Below are positions 1 through 35,222 of a stretch of 40,706 nucleotides of DNA, piece after piece (position 1 is the first letter of the stretch; each line of letters opens with the position of its first letter). Origin of the DNA: Bacillus sp. ISL-45 (lineage in GTDB: Bacteria; Bacillota; Bacilli; Bacillales; Cytobacillaceae); NCBI RefSeq assembly GCF_018613195.1, contig NZ_JAGGQQ010000022.1, positions 1 through 40,706 on the forward strand, given 5' to 3'. The notes below the pieces were generated by a model that saw only the letters and a program-made list of their open reading frames with translations, had not been told where the DNA came from and did no database searches. The translations under genes and the position numbers were made by a program.

Positions 1-910
1 AATTATATGGACTTAATCCGAAGTTGCCTTGGGTTCGGACAAATTCCCTTTGACTTGCTCCGATTTTGTCCGAAGTTGCCCGGGGTTCGGACAAAAGTCC
101 GGCGGTTTCCTCCGATTTTGTCCGAAGTTGCCTTGGGTTCGGACAAATTCCCTTTGACTTGCTCCGATTTTGTCCGAAGTTGCCCGGGGTTTAGACAAAA
201 GTCCGGCGGTTTCCTCCGATTTTGTCCGAAGTTGCCTTGGGTTCGGACAAAAGTCCGGCGGCTTCCTCTGGTTTTGTCCGAAGTTGCCTTGGGCTCAGAC
301 AAAAGTCCGGCGGTTTCCTTTAGTTTTGTCCGAAGTTGCCCGGGGTTCGGACAAAAGTCCGGCGGTTTCCTCCGATTTTGTCCGAAGTTGCCTTGAGTTC
401 GGACAAATTCCCTTTGACTTGCTCCGGTTTTGTCCGAAGTTGCCCGGGGTTCAGACAAAAGTCCGGCGGTTTCCTCCGATTTTGTCTGAAGTTGCCTTGG
501 GTTCAGACAAAAGTCCGGCGGTTTCCTCTGATTTTGTCCGAAGTAGCCTGGAGTTCGGACAAAAATCCGGCGGTTTCCTCTGATTTTGTCCGAAGTTGCC
601 CGGGGTTCAGACAAAAGTCCGGCGGTTTCCTCCGATTTTGTCCGAAGTTGCCACGGGTTCGGACAAAAGTCCGGCGGCTTCCGTTGATTTTGTCCGAAGT
701 TGCCTTGGGTTCGGACAAATTCCCTTTGACTTGCTCCGATTTTGTCCGAAGTTGCCTTGGGTTCAGACAAAAGTCCGGCGGTTTCCTCCGATTTTGTCCG
801 AAGTTGCCTCAGGTTCGGACAAAAGTCCGGCGGTTTCCTGCGATTTTGTCTGAAGTCGCCCTGGGTTCAGACAAACCTCCACCGGTTTCCTCTAAACTTG
901 TCCGAAGTCT
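1..910. repeat. Tandem array of a 52-bp palindromic unit, about 17 copies
   Basis: The element TTTTGTCCGAA recurs at 64, 116, 168, 220, 272, 324, 376, 428 and on to 896, an exact 52-bp step. Each unit holds an inverted repeat (TTTGTCCGAA, an 11-nt loop around GTTGCC, TTCGGACAAA) and a linker. The linker comes in two equal-length versions, one around GTCCGGCGGTTTCC and a rarer one around TTCCCTTTGACTTGC (in the units covering about 49-63, 147-165, 400-425 and 717-737). The last two units are more diverged. The array runs off the left edge, so its full length is unknown. Because 52 is not a multiple of 3 and the unit lacks stops, long open frames appear on both strands; these are not convincing genes. 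Confidence 0.95.
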
Positions 911-934: not shown

Positions 935-967
935 CCAATAAAAACAAAGCCGCCCAAATTGGCGGCT
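935..967 (-). terminator. Intrinsic terminator of the EamA gene
   Basis: The stem AGCCGCC/GGCGGCT (948-954 and 961-967) is followed on the minus strand by a T-rich run. It lies just after the stop codon at 975 and separates the transporter gene from the 52-bp array. Confidence 0.85.
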
Positions 968-974
968 CTAGTCC

Positions 975-1904
975 TTAACTATTATTTTGCTTAACAACTT
1001 GTCCTTCAACTGACACTTTCTTATCGCCGATCGACAGCCAGGTCACGAAGATGAGCATGATCATTGCTCCCATTAGCTGGACGCTTTGGAGCATCGTATC
1101 AAACCATATCACTGAAATGACCATAACCGTTAAAGGCTCAACACTTGATAGAATGCTAGTTTCAACTGCAGTAATATAGTTCATGCTGCCTAAGAATAGC
1201 AGGAAGGCCAATGTGCCAAAGAAAATCAAGATGGCCATGATAAAAATCATCTTCGGCTGAGCCAAGATGAGCCATTCATTGCTCATCCAAACCCGGTTCA
1301 TTATTCCCAGGACAATTCCGCCAAACAGCATACTCCAGCCTACAATCACCAGTACGCTCCATTCCTTCATTAAGCGAGCCGGGTAAAGGGTATAGAAAGC
1401 AAATGTCAGCCCAACCGCTATTCCCCATAGCAACGCAGCAGGACTGACTAGCAGACTGCTAATGGAACCGTTCGTCAATAACAGAAACAGCCCGGCCAAT
1501 GTACCAGCTATCCCCAGCATCTGATAGCGCGGCGGCCATTTTTTATGATTAAAAGAGACATAGAGTACAACAAAGATTGGAGAGGAGAATTGCAGCAAGG
1601 TTGCTACGACAGCATTGCTTGCTTCAATGGCCATGGTAAAAGTATACTGCAACCCGACCATTCCAAGAATGCTGAATACGATTAGCTGATTCCGCCAGTA
1701 TGGCGTTTTTGCCACTGTGAAAATATCTTCTTTTTTGATTGCCAGGAACGCCAGGATACTGCTTCCGGCAATCATCATCCGGATTGTCAGAATAAAAGGA
1801 ACTGATAATTCAGTATTAGCAAGCACCCACTCCGTGATCGACCCCGTCATTCCCCAGAGCATGGCTCCAATGACAATCATGAGTATTCCTTTTAAACGTA
1901 CCAT
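975..1904 (-). CDS. EamA/DMT-family membrane transporter
   Basis: This encodes a polytopic inner-membrane protein of about 309 aa with roughly ten hydrophobic segments, arranged as two EamA repeats (about residues 5-135 and 150-285). This is the drug/metabolite transporter layout, and members export small metabolites or amino acids; the substrate cannot be read from sequence. The frame is also open from a GTG at 1910, but the ATG at 1904 sits about 8 nt from the ribosome binding site AGGAG, while the GTG sits only 2 nt from it, so 1904 is preferred. It is transcribed alone, away from the gene at 2144, and ends at a good terminator. A second, unrelated-looking family member lies at 15211-16131. 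Confidence 0.9.
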   Translation of the reverse strand: MVRLKGILMIVIGAMLWGMTGSITEWVLANTELSVPFILTIRMMIAGSSILAFLAIKKEDIFTVAKTPYWRNQLIVFSILGMVGLQYTFTMAIEASNAVVATLLQFSSPIFVVLYVSFNHKKWPPRYQMLGIAGTLAGLFLLLTNGSISSLLVSPAALLWGIAVGLTFAFYTLYPARLMKEWSVLVIVGWSMLFGGIVLGIMNRVWMSNEWLILAQPKMIFIMAILIFFGTLAFLLFLGSMNYITAVETSILSSVEPLTVMVISVIWFDTMLQSVQLMGAMIMLIFVTWLSIGDKKVSVEGQVVKQNNS

Positions 1905-1951
1905 TGCCACCGCTCCTGTCTTTGACTTGAAATATATATAAATCTACAAGA

Positions 1952-11596: not shown

Positions 11597-11752
11597 AAAC
11601 ACAAAAAGCTCCCTTCTTTAAGAAGAGAGCCATAGAATACTCTCTTCTCATCTTTCAGACAAAATTGTCCGCAGGAATTGGCACAGTATTCTTTCAGAAC
11701 CTGTTGCCGAGGTTTCGCAGGGCCTTTCCCTCCACCTCTCTTGATAAGAAGA
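11597..11752 (-). ncRNA. SAM-I riboswitch (S-box leader) with antiterminator and terminator
   Basis: Read on the minus strand from 11751, the leader shows the S-box core in order: CTTATCAAGAG, GGTGGAGGGA, GGCCCTGCGAAACC, CGGCAACAGG, GTGCCAATTCCTGC and AAAGATGAGAAG. The end pairs back with the start as stem P1. The 3' strand of P1 (GAGAAGAGAG) can instead pair with CTCTCTTCTT downstream, which is the left arm of a terminator (GCTCTCTT/AAGGGAGC then TTTTTG, about 11601-11626). SAM binding frees the terminator, so low SAM turns on the monooxygenase/ATP-grasp operon. Confidence 0.96.
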
Positions 11753-20555: not shown

Positions 20556-20635
20556 GACCTTCACCTCGGTTTTAAATACGTTTTTTAAGTATTAAAAGTT
20601 TCAACCTTTTTATTGGTACTGCTATAAAACATGTC

Positions 20636-20790
20636 AACCGTTGATAAATTCCCTCTAACCGTTGATAAAACTGCGACAACCGTTAATATATTCTCTCTAA
20701 CCGTCAAAATAATTGCTGCAACCGTTAATATAACCCCTATAGCCGCTCATACATCTCTCTAACAGTCCATTCACACCCCTCAAACCAATA
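20636..20790. repeat. Degenerate 21-bp tandem repeat
   Basis: AACCG (or a close variant) recurs at 20636, 20657, 20678, 20699, 20720 and 20741, an exact 21-bp step, with a weaker seventh copy near 20762. The best conserved core is AACCGTTGATA or AACCGTTAATA. The ends of the units alternate between TCTCTCT-like and CTGCGAC-like text, hinting at an older 42-bp unit. It lies upstream of the zinc-ribbon gene and beyond the terminator of the ABC operon. Confidence 0.85.
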
Positions 20791-34019: not shown

Positions 34020-34364
34020 TGTACGCACCCTTTCAGTCAGCTCTATCTGTAAAATATTGTATCAAGTACTATAAATTTGCTAGTTTTATAGGTTGGTAAA
34101 CTGTGATTCCTCGTATTTTAAAATTTTTTAGGCAAATTTTACGGGCTAGGCAAGCGGAGGCCTCTTACCACATACGCCTTGCTATTACTGCCTAACCATT
34201 ACCCGTATATTTTACCGTAGCTTAAGCTGTTACATCCGTTACGATCACTACGTTATAGCCGCTATGCCAGTAATGCTTATTCGTTACATTACAACCTTAT
34301 TTTACCGATAATACGGGTAGTAAGCGGTACTTTTACAGGCTTAATATCCTCCCCCCCGAAATCG
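34020..34364. other. Gene-free spacer with inverted repeats
   Basis: Rich in CGTTA/TAACG text, like the neighbouring genes. Hairpin arms are GGCTAGGCA/TGCCTAACC (about 34143-34151 and 34190-34198, one mismatch) and ACCCGTAT/ATACGGGT (about 34199-34207 and 34311-34319). It holds the promoter of the HNH operon and the end of the AbiJ-like gene. No open frame is visible. Confidence 0.45.
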
Positions 34365-35222
34365 CTATAACGTTAACCCTGCCTTAATGCTCTTTTCCGT
34401 TAAGTAGTTAACAAACGCAGAGCAGGCAACTAACATAAATTTAGCATCCTCGAAATCTACTTGTTTATCGCTCTTTAAGAAATGGCGGATACCGTCATCG
34501 CTCGTATAGCCGTACAGCTTATCGAAGGCTTGCTTTAACGCAGGGTGCAATTCGATATGGCTTTCCTTTTCGATAACCTTTAACGCTGCTCCTAACGTTG
34601 AGGCCTCGTTTCCACTGACTTTTGTAATTGCCGTACAAATTGCTTCAACGGCGGAAATAGATTCCTTAATGGAATTTCGGAAATCAGGGTTCTGTTTATC
34701 CGCTAACAACCTTAAAGCCTCTTTAATATGAGTTGCGGCGTAATGGGTAGCTGAAGTATTAACGGTTGCCTGTTCTATCTCTTCTATTTCTTCATCCCCA
34801 GTTATTTTTACAAGTTCATTGCCCACAAACCTGTACCCAGACATTTCACTTGTTAAAATGGTATTAAATTTATCAGGAAGGTTTATTTGACGAAAATCTT
34901 TAGCCAAAAATTCTATTAAATCATATACTTGATACCACTCACTCTCAAAGACATATTCTTCTAATTCTTCCGCTAGAGATCTAACCTTTGCTGGCATTTG
35001 GTTTATTGGTCTTTTCAAGTGATTTGTCCACACCCTAACGGCTGTTTTAAATGCATCCGAACTGCTATTCATGTATCCTTCACTCGAACCTCCCTTTAGG
35101 CATTGAATGTAGTGTACATATATAACGTTCCATATTCCAACCCTTAAAGCATGATCCATAGATTCCGTTTGTAGTATCGTTCTTACTTGGGTTATCCCCA
35201 TCCTTTGAGAAAAACTCTGCAA
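34365..35222 (-). CDS. AbiJ-like abortive infection protein
   Basis: This protein of about 285 aa has an AbiJ N-terminal type domain at about residues 1-60 (SFSQRMGI, then ALRVGIWNVIY) and a C-terminal helical domain (about 155-285) with HIKEALRLLADKQNPDFRNS and FEDAKFMLVACSAFVNYL. AbiJ proteins give phage resistance by abortive infection. The most likely start is TTG 35222, 7 nt after GGAGG; the frame reaches 35237 at another TTG that precedes the site. It is monocistronic and next to a decayed recombinase. Confidence 0.8.
   Translation of the reverse strand: MQSFSQRMGITQVRTILQTESMDHALRVGIWNVIYVHYIQCLKGGSSEGYMNSSSDAFKTAVRVWTNHLKRPINQMPAKVRSLAEELEEYVFESEWYQVYDLIEFLAKDFRQINLPDKFNTILTSEMSGYRFVGNELVKITGDEEIEEIEQATVNTSATHYAATHIKEALRLLADKQNPDFRNSIKESISAVEAICTAITKVSGNEASTLGAALKVIEKESHIELHPALKQAFDKLYGYTSDDGIRHFLKSDKQVDFEDAKFMLVACSAFVNYLTEKSIKAGLTL

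Follow-up and report, generated by a model that had tools for sequence, protein, structure and literature searches.

A 52-bp satellite array of Bacillus, its dyad geometry and the association of such arrays with IS256-type insertion elements

The interrupted array and its surroundings

The window, i.e. the whole stretch of 40,706 nucleotides of Bacillus sp. ISL-45 contig NZ_JAGGQQ010000022.1 that was analysed, opens with the terminus of an insertion element, followed by a 52-bp satellite array, a terminator-like inverted repeat and an EamA-family transporter gene (Table 1). Tandem Repeats Finder (TRF) reports the array at 17–908, with a period of 52, 17.2 copies, 82% matches, 0% indels and a score of 1147, and the listing of units at a step of 52 comprises 17 units with starts from 13 to 845. 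The initial annotation, which had claimed at least 17 units at an exact 52-bp step, was correct in this respect, as it was in describing arms that are kept while linkers come in two equal-length forms: each unit consists of the arms TTTGTCCGAA and TTCGGACAAA, an inner spacer of 11 nt and a 21-nt linker, which reads TTCCCTTTGACTTGCTCCGAT in four units (starts 13, 117, 377 and 689) and A(G/A)TCCGGCGG... in 12, the diverged unit at 845 falling outside both versions. The extent it had given, 1..910, holds for the array proper at 19–908 and not for positions 1–18, which belong to the insertion element; the first, seemingly diverged arm TTAATCCGAA is accordingly the element end plus array and not an arm of the array. 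Judged by its linkers, which are two related versions and not unique spacers, the array is not a CRISPR array. At the gathering score, Rfam 15 gave no match in the array, the sole match in the window being a SAM riboswitch elsewhere. One frame is open throughout in 8 of 39 long arrays, compared with 5.9 expected from tiled shuffled units, and 52 is not a multiple of 3; open frames are thus not in excess, and the arrays are probably non-coding.

Table 1. Features of the window and of the far side of the interrupted array (TRF, Tandem Repeats Finder).
Feature	Position	Strand	Basis or remark
Insertion element right terminus (..ATTATATGGACTTAATC), interrupting the array	1..18	.	Rest of element outside the assembly
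Presumed 8-bp target duplication CGAAGTTG	19..26	.	Second copy at start of contig C12; by eye
52-bp satellite array	19..908	.	~17 units visible, 0 indels; TRF and unit listing
Example of 27-bp dyad core, TGTC-N19-GACA (unit from 65), repeated every 52 bp	67..93	.	Unit listing
Example of 25-bp linker joining two dyad cores	94..118	.	Minus strand purine-rich
Terminator-like inverted repeat and T-run, between the EamA gene (3' of it) and the array	941..967	-	By eye
EamA-family transporter gene, 3' end toward the array	975..1910	-	Pfam PF00892; orthologous anchor in 17 other genomes
SAM riboswitch	11645..11750	-	96.6 bits
FosM/FosB-like bacillithiol transferase gene, far side of the interrupted array	L024 (contig C12) 570..998	-	267.8 bits to NF038306, cut-off 255

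Since the window opens at a contig start, the array is cut. The start of contig C12 carries units of the same family (nine full units in the unit listing, 9.3 copies by TRF), and we take contigs C12 and C15 to be opposite flanks of a single array that has been interrupted, which would comprise about 26 units or more when the units of C12 are added to those of the window. In the four sister loci inspected by eye (L035, L040, L042 and L043), the array is followed by an oppositely oriented gene similar to FosM/FosB.

Satellites of this length, the 52-nt tandem repeats of Bacillus, were reportedly described by Subirana and Messeguer in J Bacteriol in 2020. The array of the window is a member of this class (PMC8161180) and not a new element. 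Its repeat length, constant within an array at 51–53 nt in the class, is 52 with 0 indels, and its genome holds many arrays with differing sequences (30 arrays, several arm families). The statement in the initial annotation that no element with this unit had been described was wrong, as the part of PMC8161180 available to us lists 52-nt repeats including a B. alkalitelluris family, 71_52_7, whose consensus has nearly the same arms.

Dyad geometry, compensating arms and helical phase

Four 400-kb samples, 1.6 Mb in total, were drawn from the genome of the window (C23 and C24) and from two sister genomes (G078 and G089). Among the 75 tandem arrays with a TRF score of at least 100 in this 1.6 Mb of the genus, 54 have a period of 50–53 and 46 a period of exactly 52, well beyond what chance would give. 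The density of arrays of period 50–53 is about 34 per Mb, with 30 in the 0.8 Mb of the window's own genome, and the arrays account for 1.2% of the sequence sampled from these genomes and for 6.2% of its non-coding part.

Arrays with unrelated arms share a dyad of 27 nt, mostly TGTC-N19-GACA, and a linker of 25 nt. The dyad of 51 of 63 array consensuses is reached by at most 5 of 100 shuffles, and in all 48 period-52 arrays that pass at ≤10 of 100 shuffles the dyad axis lies on a base. The TGTC...GACA foot, 27 nt from end to end, is present at 7 or 8 of its 8 positions in 42 of the 56 dyad arrays; it is weaker in 13, which match at ≤5 of 8 positions, and in one more at 6. In an array from outside the genus (G328) the best stem is even-spaced, yet TGTC-N19-GACA is also present. 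The arm sequences vary (CCGAA, CCGATAGA, CCGTCAT, CTAA, CAAGA and others), as do the loop lengths, while the 27-nt span is constant. When spacings from 4 to 45 were scanned, TGTC-N19-GACA-N25-TGTC was found 182 times in the 1.6 Mb, the next best combination reaching 7, and in 0.738 Mb from other families the 19/25 combination was found 29 times, the next best reaching 2. The two-unit pattern TGTC-N19-GACA-N25-TGTC-N19-GACA is present in 136 of 193 family genomes, representing 17 of 25 genera, and a reversed control pattern in 2 of 193, at one place each; across the class, the pattern was found in 9 of 398 genomes, other families and orders included, and the control in none. In four genomes of other families or orders (0.738 Mb), 9 of 17 arrays carry the foot with no more than one mismatch among its 8 positions. 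The published table (PMC8161180) gives 27 consensus units: TGTC-N19-GACA is present in 5, and a 27-nt dyad passes the cut-off of ≤10 of 200 shuffles in 16 but not in the other 11. These 11 units, and the 14 arrays with a weaker foot, speak against a DNA-level model. The proposal that spacing is constrained while sequence changes, made initially for the one array, is supported, since the 52-bp step and its division into 27 and 25 recur in different genera and families among arrays whose arms are unrelated.

For the pairing of the arms, the 71 arrays of the TGTC type (440 units) were reduced to 32 with different inner sequence. At dyad offsets 4–9, 133 of 192 cells are Watson–Crick pairs, versus 64 ± 7 when the arms are re-dealt among the 32 arrays, with a maximum of 90 in 10000 shuffles. 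Base entropy at these paired offsets is 1.6–1.9 bits, and pairing declines past offset 13. That the inner arms are paired despite the high base entropy indicates that change in its letters leaves the 27-nt dyad intact. Such complementary arms are also compatible with hairpins in RNA or in single-stranded DNA, a point against a model at the level of double-stranded DNA.

A length of 52 bp fits the five turns of B-DNA proposed in the initial annotation, and A/T positions recur within it with a phase of 10.4 bp. When the foot is masked, 46% of the AA/TT power and 61% of the A/T power fall on harmonic 5 (10.4 bp), more than in any of 1000 shuffles; harmonics 2, 7 and 12 likewise lie above all 1000 shuffles in at least one of the two profiles, which speaks against a DNA-level model. 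In the raw arrays, 38% of the power of harmonics 2–11 lies at harmonic 5, which is the strongest harmonic in 10 of 32 arrays taken singly. With a hand-entered wedge table, predicted curvature amounts to 18.8 degrees per 21 bp versus 14.9 in shuffled arrays, being above shuffled in 40 of 50 arrays, and to 16.9 in other intergenic regions. As this effect is modest, isolated curvature was rejected as the sole cause.

Genomic placement, copy number and insertion elements

The unit of the window array recurs in many arrays of its own genome and in relatives: its strict palindrome pattern (≤3 mismatches) is found 80 times in this genome, distributed over about ten arrays. Of the 193 family genomes, 18 contain the pattern, and 16 of these belong to the 21 genomes of the genus. 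A single occurrence with variable unit length in sister strains, which the initial annotation had associated with simple slippage, is not what was found, as 10 of 18 orthologous sites on the 3' side of the EamA gene carry an array of period 51–52, with 2.0 to 17.2 copies. The remaining 8 sites, including those of G084 and of more distant species, are without a 51–52 array. Growth of the arrays by whole units is evident from higher-order blocks of 104 and 156 bp. Substitutions number 1674 versus 89 deleted positions in 21539, a count in which TRF favours regular arrays and insertions are left uncounted. Other sites gave further observations: at the EamA site of one species, a 20–21-nt array (L049, 1322–1437) lies where sisters have a 52-nt array; arrays occupy one divergent gap in two species (C23, 12295–12577, and the G078 sample, 34183–34511), between FAD monooxygenase and NUDIX-like genes as judged by eye; and a record titled Chryseobacterium sp. 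ISL-80 (L022) contains the Bacillus-type unit of the window array, so that its title is probably wrong.

With gene calls from a simple in-house caller, the 47 dyad arrays of the four samples divide into 25 in tandem gaps, 12 in convergent gaps, 8 in divergent gaps and 2 at contig ends, convergent gaps being enriched (odds ratio 2.7, p 0.009). Tandem-gap arrays, of which there are 29 over all loci, start at a median of 94 nt past the upstream stop. Of 32 arrays with known replichore, 28 have the motif oriented with the leading strand (11/11 in convergent, 5/6 in divergent and 10/13 in tandem gaps, 2/2 at contig ends). In the gene-neutral convergent and divergent gaps together, 16 of 17 arrays follow the leading strand. 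Agreement of motif orientation with the gene, taken from the same comparison, is 11 of 17. Among 34 tandem arrays, 28 have their purine-rich strand in agreement with the upstream gene, but this relationship is confounded with replication, and gene-strand orientation was rejected.

The terminal pattern AWTWATATGGACTT occurs seven times in the genome of the window, always at a contig start (the window contig and six others), and six of these termini open directly into an array, which begins within 24 bases. A second presumed 8-bp duplication, CGATTTTG, is found by eye at the C22 start and the C23 end; if C12 is joined to C15, and C22 to the C23 end, there are six insertions, five of them in arrays, with 8-bp duplications in both pairs (by eye). 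No IS256-type transposase was matched in this genome at E ≤ 1e-50, the interior of the element lying outside the assembly. In other genomes, IS256-type transposase genes lie next to related termini (Transposase_mut, PF00872, at 1e-116 to 4e-133 in L248, L246 and L260), and the window copy may belong with the IS256/Mutator-type elements, judging from terminal similarity and the 8-bp duplications. Nine of 20 loci with similar termini were inspected: L246, L247, L248, L249 and L260 have a 52-nt array at the terminus, L244, L255 and L256 have none, and none was reported by TRF at L252. Four termini in other genomes of the genus, L231 and L234 (with the own-type sequence) as well as L227 and L228, were rejected as chance matches because they lie inside ordinary genes.

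Flanks were taken for 20 of the 120 matches listed, one side each, picked for spread before viewing; these comprise 15 close copies (52–64% identity) and 5 distant ones (29–43%), one close copy (L273) being left out because it is masked after its end. On the side examined, 9 of the 14 assessable close copies are flanked by a 51–53-nt array (in L271 it begins 55 nt off, and in L267 TRF gives a period of 49 with a 51-nt consensus), and none of the 5 distant copies is, two of which (L276 and L277) have similar ends (..GGACTTGA..) and no array. The close copies without such an array are L268 (one unit only), L272, L274 and L275, and L270 adjoins a 21-nt array, which suggests that the clade may target both satellite classes. 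Under random insertion in non-coding DNA, 9 of 14 has a probability of 2e-8, calculated with the array content of the genus and with copies treated as independent, which those in sisters are not. The array families differ among the element junctions.

Measured from the dyad axis, the 19 insertion centres fall near 5, 15.5 and 26 bp, which are A/T maxima. Distances of 3.5–6.5, 14.5–15.5 or 25.5–26.5 bp account for 18 of the 19 insertions if known feet help to place the axis, and for 15 if it is placed from pairing only. Phased at 10.4 bp, the mean cosine is -0.81 with known foot sequences helping to choose the axis and -0.58 by pairing alone, a value as low being reached in 1 of 20000 null draws; a single array family, in two sisters, accounts for 3 of the 19 insertions, and an 8-bp duplication is assumed for all. 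This phase could follow simply from a preference of the transposase for A/T-rich centres.

Possible level of action and relation to known repeats

Of the levels at which the arrays might act, DNA architecture is the best supported by the computed geometry, compensating arms, phasing, whole-unit copy changes and element insertions with their phase, whereas DNA bending, a binding protein and a benefit to the cell are what we infer from them, the protein and the benefit being guesses. We tentatively propose, with belief and doubt close to balanced, that the array acts at the level of double-stranded DNA as a bent or wrapped segment for a nucleoid-type protein and is exploited by an IS256 clade. 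The unit would span five helical turns, a 27-bp dyad and a 25-bp linker with A/T-rich steps once per turn, so that every unit would present the same face; a protein reading shape and spacing more than sequence would explain why the arms can change and the length is fixed. Arrays would grow and shrink by whole units, and the IS256-type clade would use them as landing sites, one copy lying inside the window array. A further-reaching version, which we consider doubtful, is that 52-bp satellites form a structure-coded scaffold of the Bacilli chromosome, with five-turn units that may drift in sequence as long as the 27/25 dyad and the once-per-turn A/T steps keep their register, wrapped or bent over kilobases by a protein; the IS256 clade would read this shape, and not the sequence, when inserting on one helix face; if so, one-face insertion would be a natural footprint of the wrapped state. 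A nucleosome array of bacterial or archaeal histones was rejected, as the histone fold PF00808 is found in 0 of 21 genus genomes.

Two improbable alternatives explain part of the same evidence. The units could act as RNA hairpins, either as a transcribed sponge, a role for which Hfq has been suggested as the partner in PMC8161180, or as a source of small RNAs. Array units of B. coagulans appear in RNA-seq according to PMC8625621, which speaks against a purely DNA-level model, two-unit RNA folds are strong (z of -3.0, -4.2 and -3.4 in the three stretches tried, both strands), and the units are directional with purine-rich linkers. Stem defects show a slight excess of G.U over A.C when read by the purine strand (127 vs 103 and 197 vs 168), but almost equal numbers by the leading strand (96 and 98, with 239 other mismatches), by the upstream gene (83 and 84) and at the consensus level (25 and 27; in arrays, 23 vs 24). 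With so little strand preference, an RNA-hairpin role, which the initial annotation had also considered, is left without clear support. Moreover, 8 of 47 arrays lie between divergent genes, where no upstream gene reads in, the strict 52-bp spacing and the 10.4-bp A/T phasing would be unexpected for RNA, and the array has no Rfam match. Equally, we give little credence to the arrays being an unselected by-product, in which slippage and unequal crossing-over copy units and template switching perfects palindromes. This would account for the range from 2.0 to 17.2 copies at one orthologous site, for the 104- and 156-bp blocks, which point to whole-unit duplication, and for inner arms that are palindromic whatever their sequence, as template switching could yield. 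It leaves unexplained, however, the 27/25 split, the TGTC foot and the 10.4-bp A/T phase common to unrelated arrays and to different families and orders, and the preponderance of substitutions over deleted positions also argues against it, subject to the bias of TRF and the uncounted insertions given above.

That the arrays are REP/BIME-like repeats dispersed by a RAYT, an HUH tyrosine transposase, is very unlikely. The palindromes are short, intergenic and present in many copies, and their leading-strand orientation (28/32) is what single-strand mobilisation predicts, but Y1_Tnp (PF01797), found in 18 of 21 genus genomes, is absent from the array-rich G085 and G089 (506 and 519 two-unit matches). 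Such a transposase is therefore not required, and this origin was rejected; head-to-tail 52-bp arrays are also unlike REP dimers, and the array kept across species at the EamA site suggests slow movement. Scarcely credible is an operator array for one sequence-specific transcription factor, for which the dyad symmetry, the conserved TGTC/GACA foot and the fixed helical spacing would be suitable, given that one genome holds many inner-arm sequences and that arrays are found in convergent, tandem and divergent gaps, with enrichment in the convergent ones. Architecture of double-stranded DNA remains our preferred reading. On the basis of sequence comparison, the dyad geometry and the helical A/T phase would represent a testable common design by which satellites could be found in a genome with one pattern. 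Should a protein read the shape, the array would be a nucleoprotein structure so far unrecognised in Bacilli; the association with IS256 elements would add a new example of target choice by DNA architecture in a transposon, and the insertion phase may offer an in vivo footprint.

The 52-nt repeats in the part of PMC8161180 available to us occur in about 30% of 176 Bacillus genomes and, like the arrays described here, combine a constant unit with variable sequence, several families per genome and short signals together with their reverse inside one repeat, the length being strain-dependent. They are reported there as constant in length without sequence conservation, their length unexplained and their function unknown, and the words "palindrom" and "hairpin" are absent from the text of the paper. 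The common 27/25 geometry, the helical A/T phase and the IS256 insertions, found in the present analysis, go beyond it. A literature search of titles and the starts of abstracts, with subscription papers mostly outside its reach, returned no paper on a common satellite geometry or on IS256 elements inside satellites; the satellite class is known, and the geometry, compensating arms, A/T phase and insertions appear to be new. A second satellite class, the 20–21-nt tandem repeats of Bacillus (PMC8161180, same portion), likewise spans a whole number of helical turns, but its A/T phasing is only weakly above expectation (0.22 vs 0.10, 26 arrays), so that a phasing shared with the 52-nt arrays was not accepted. 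The window itself holds a short 21/42-nt tandem array of this class at 20635–20732.

Two other systems share individual features. The GTAG- and CGTC-tagged palindromic repeats, as presented in PMC3733652, are also short stem-loops with a tetranucleotide tag, CGTC being changed to TGTC in many, and the CGTC repeats likewise have no dedicated transposase known; a word search of that text gave no match for Firmicutes. Their tag is unpaired and they occur mostly as singles or dimers, whereas here TGTC pairs with GACA in 52-bp arrays. REP elements, according to PMC1525189, are intergenic palindromic repeats favoured as targets by ISPpu9, ISPpu10, ISPsy8 and others, as the satellites are here. In contrast to these targets, the satellites are head-to-tail 52-bp arrays of unrelated sequences associated with a Mutator/IS256-type transposase, and the place of insertion follows helical phase rather than any one sequence.
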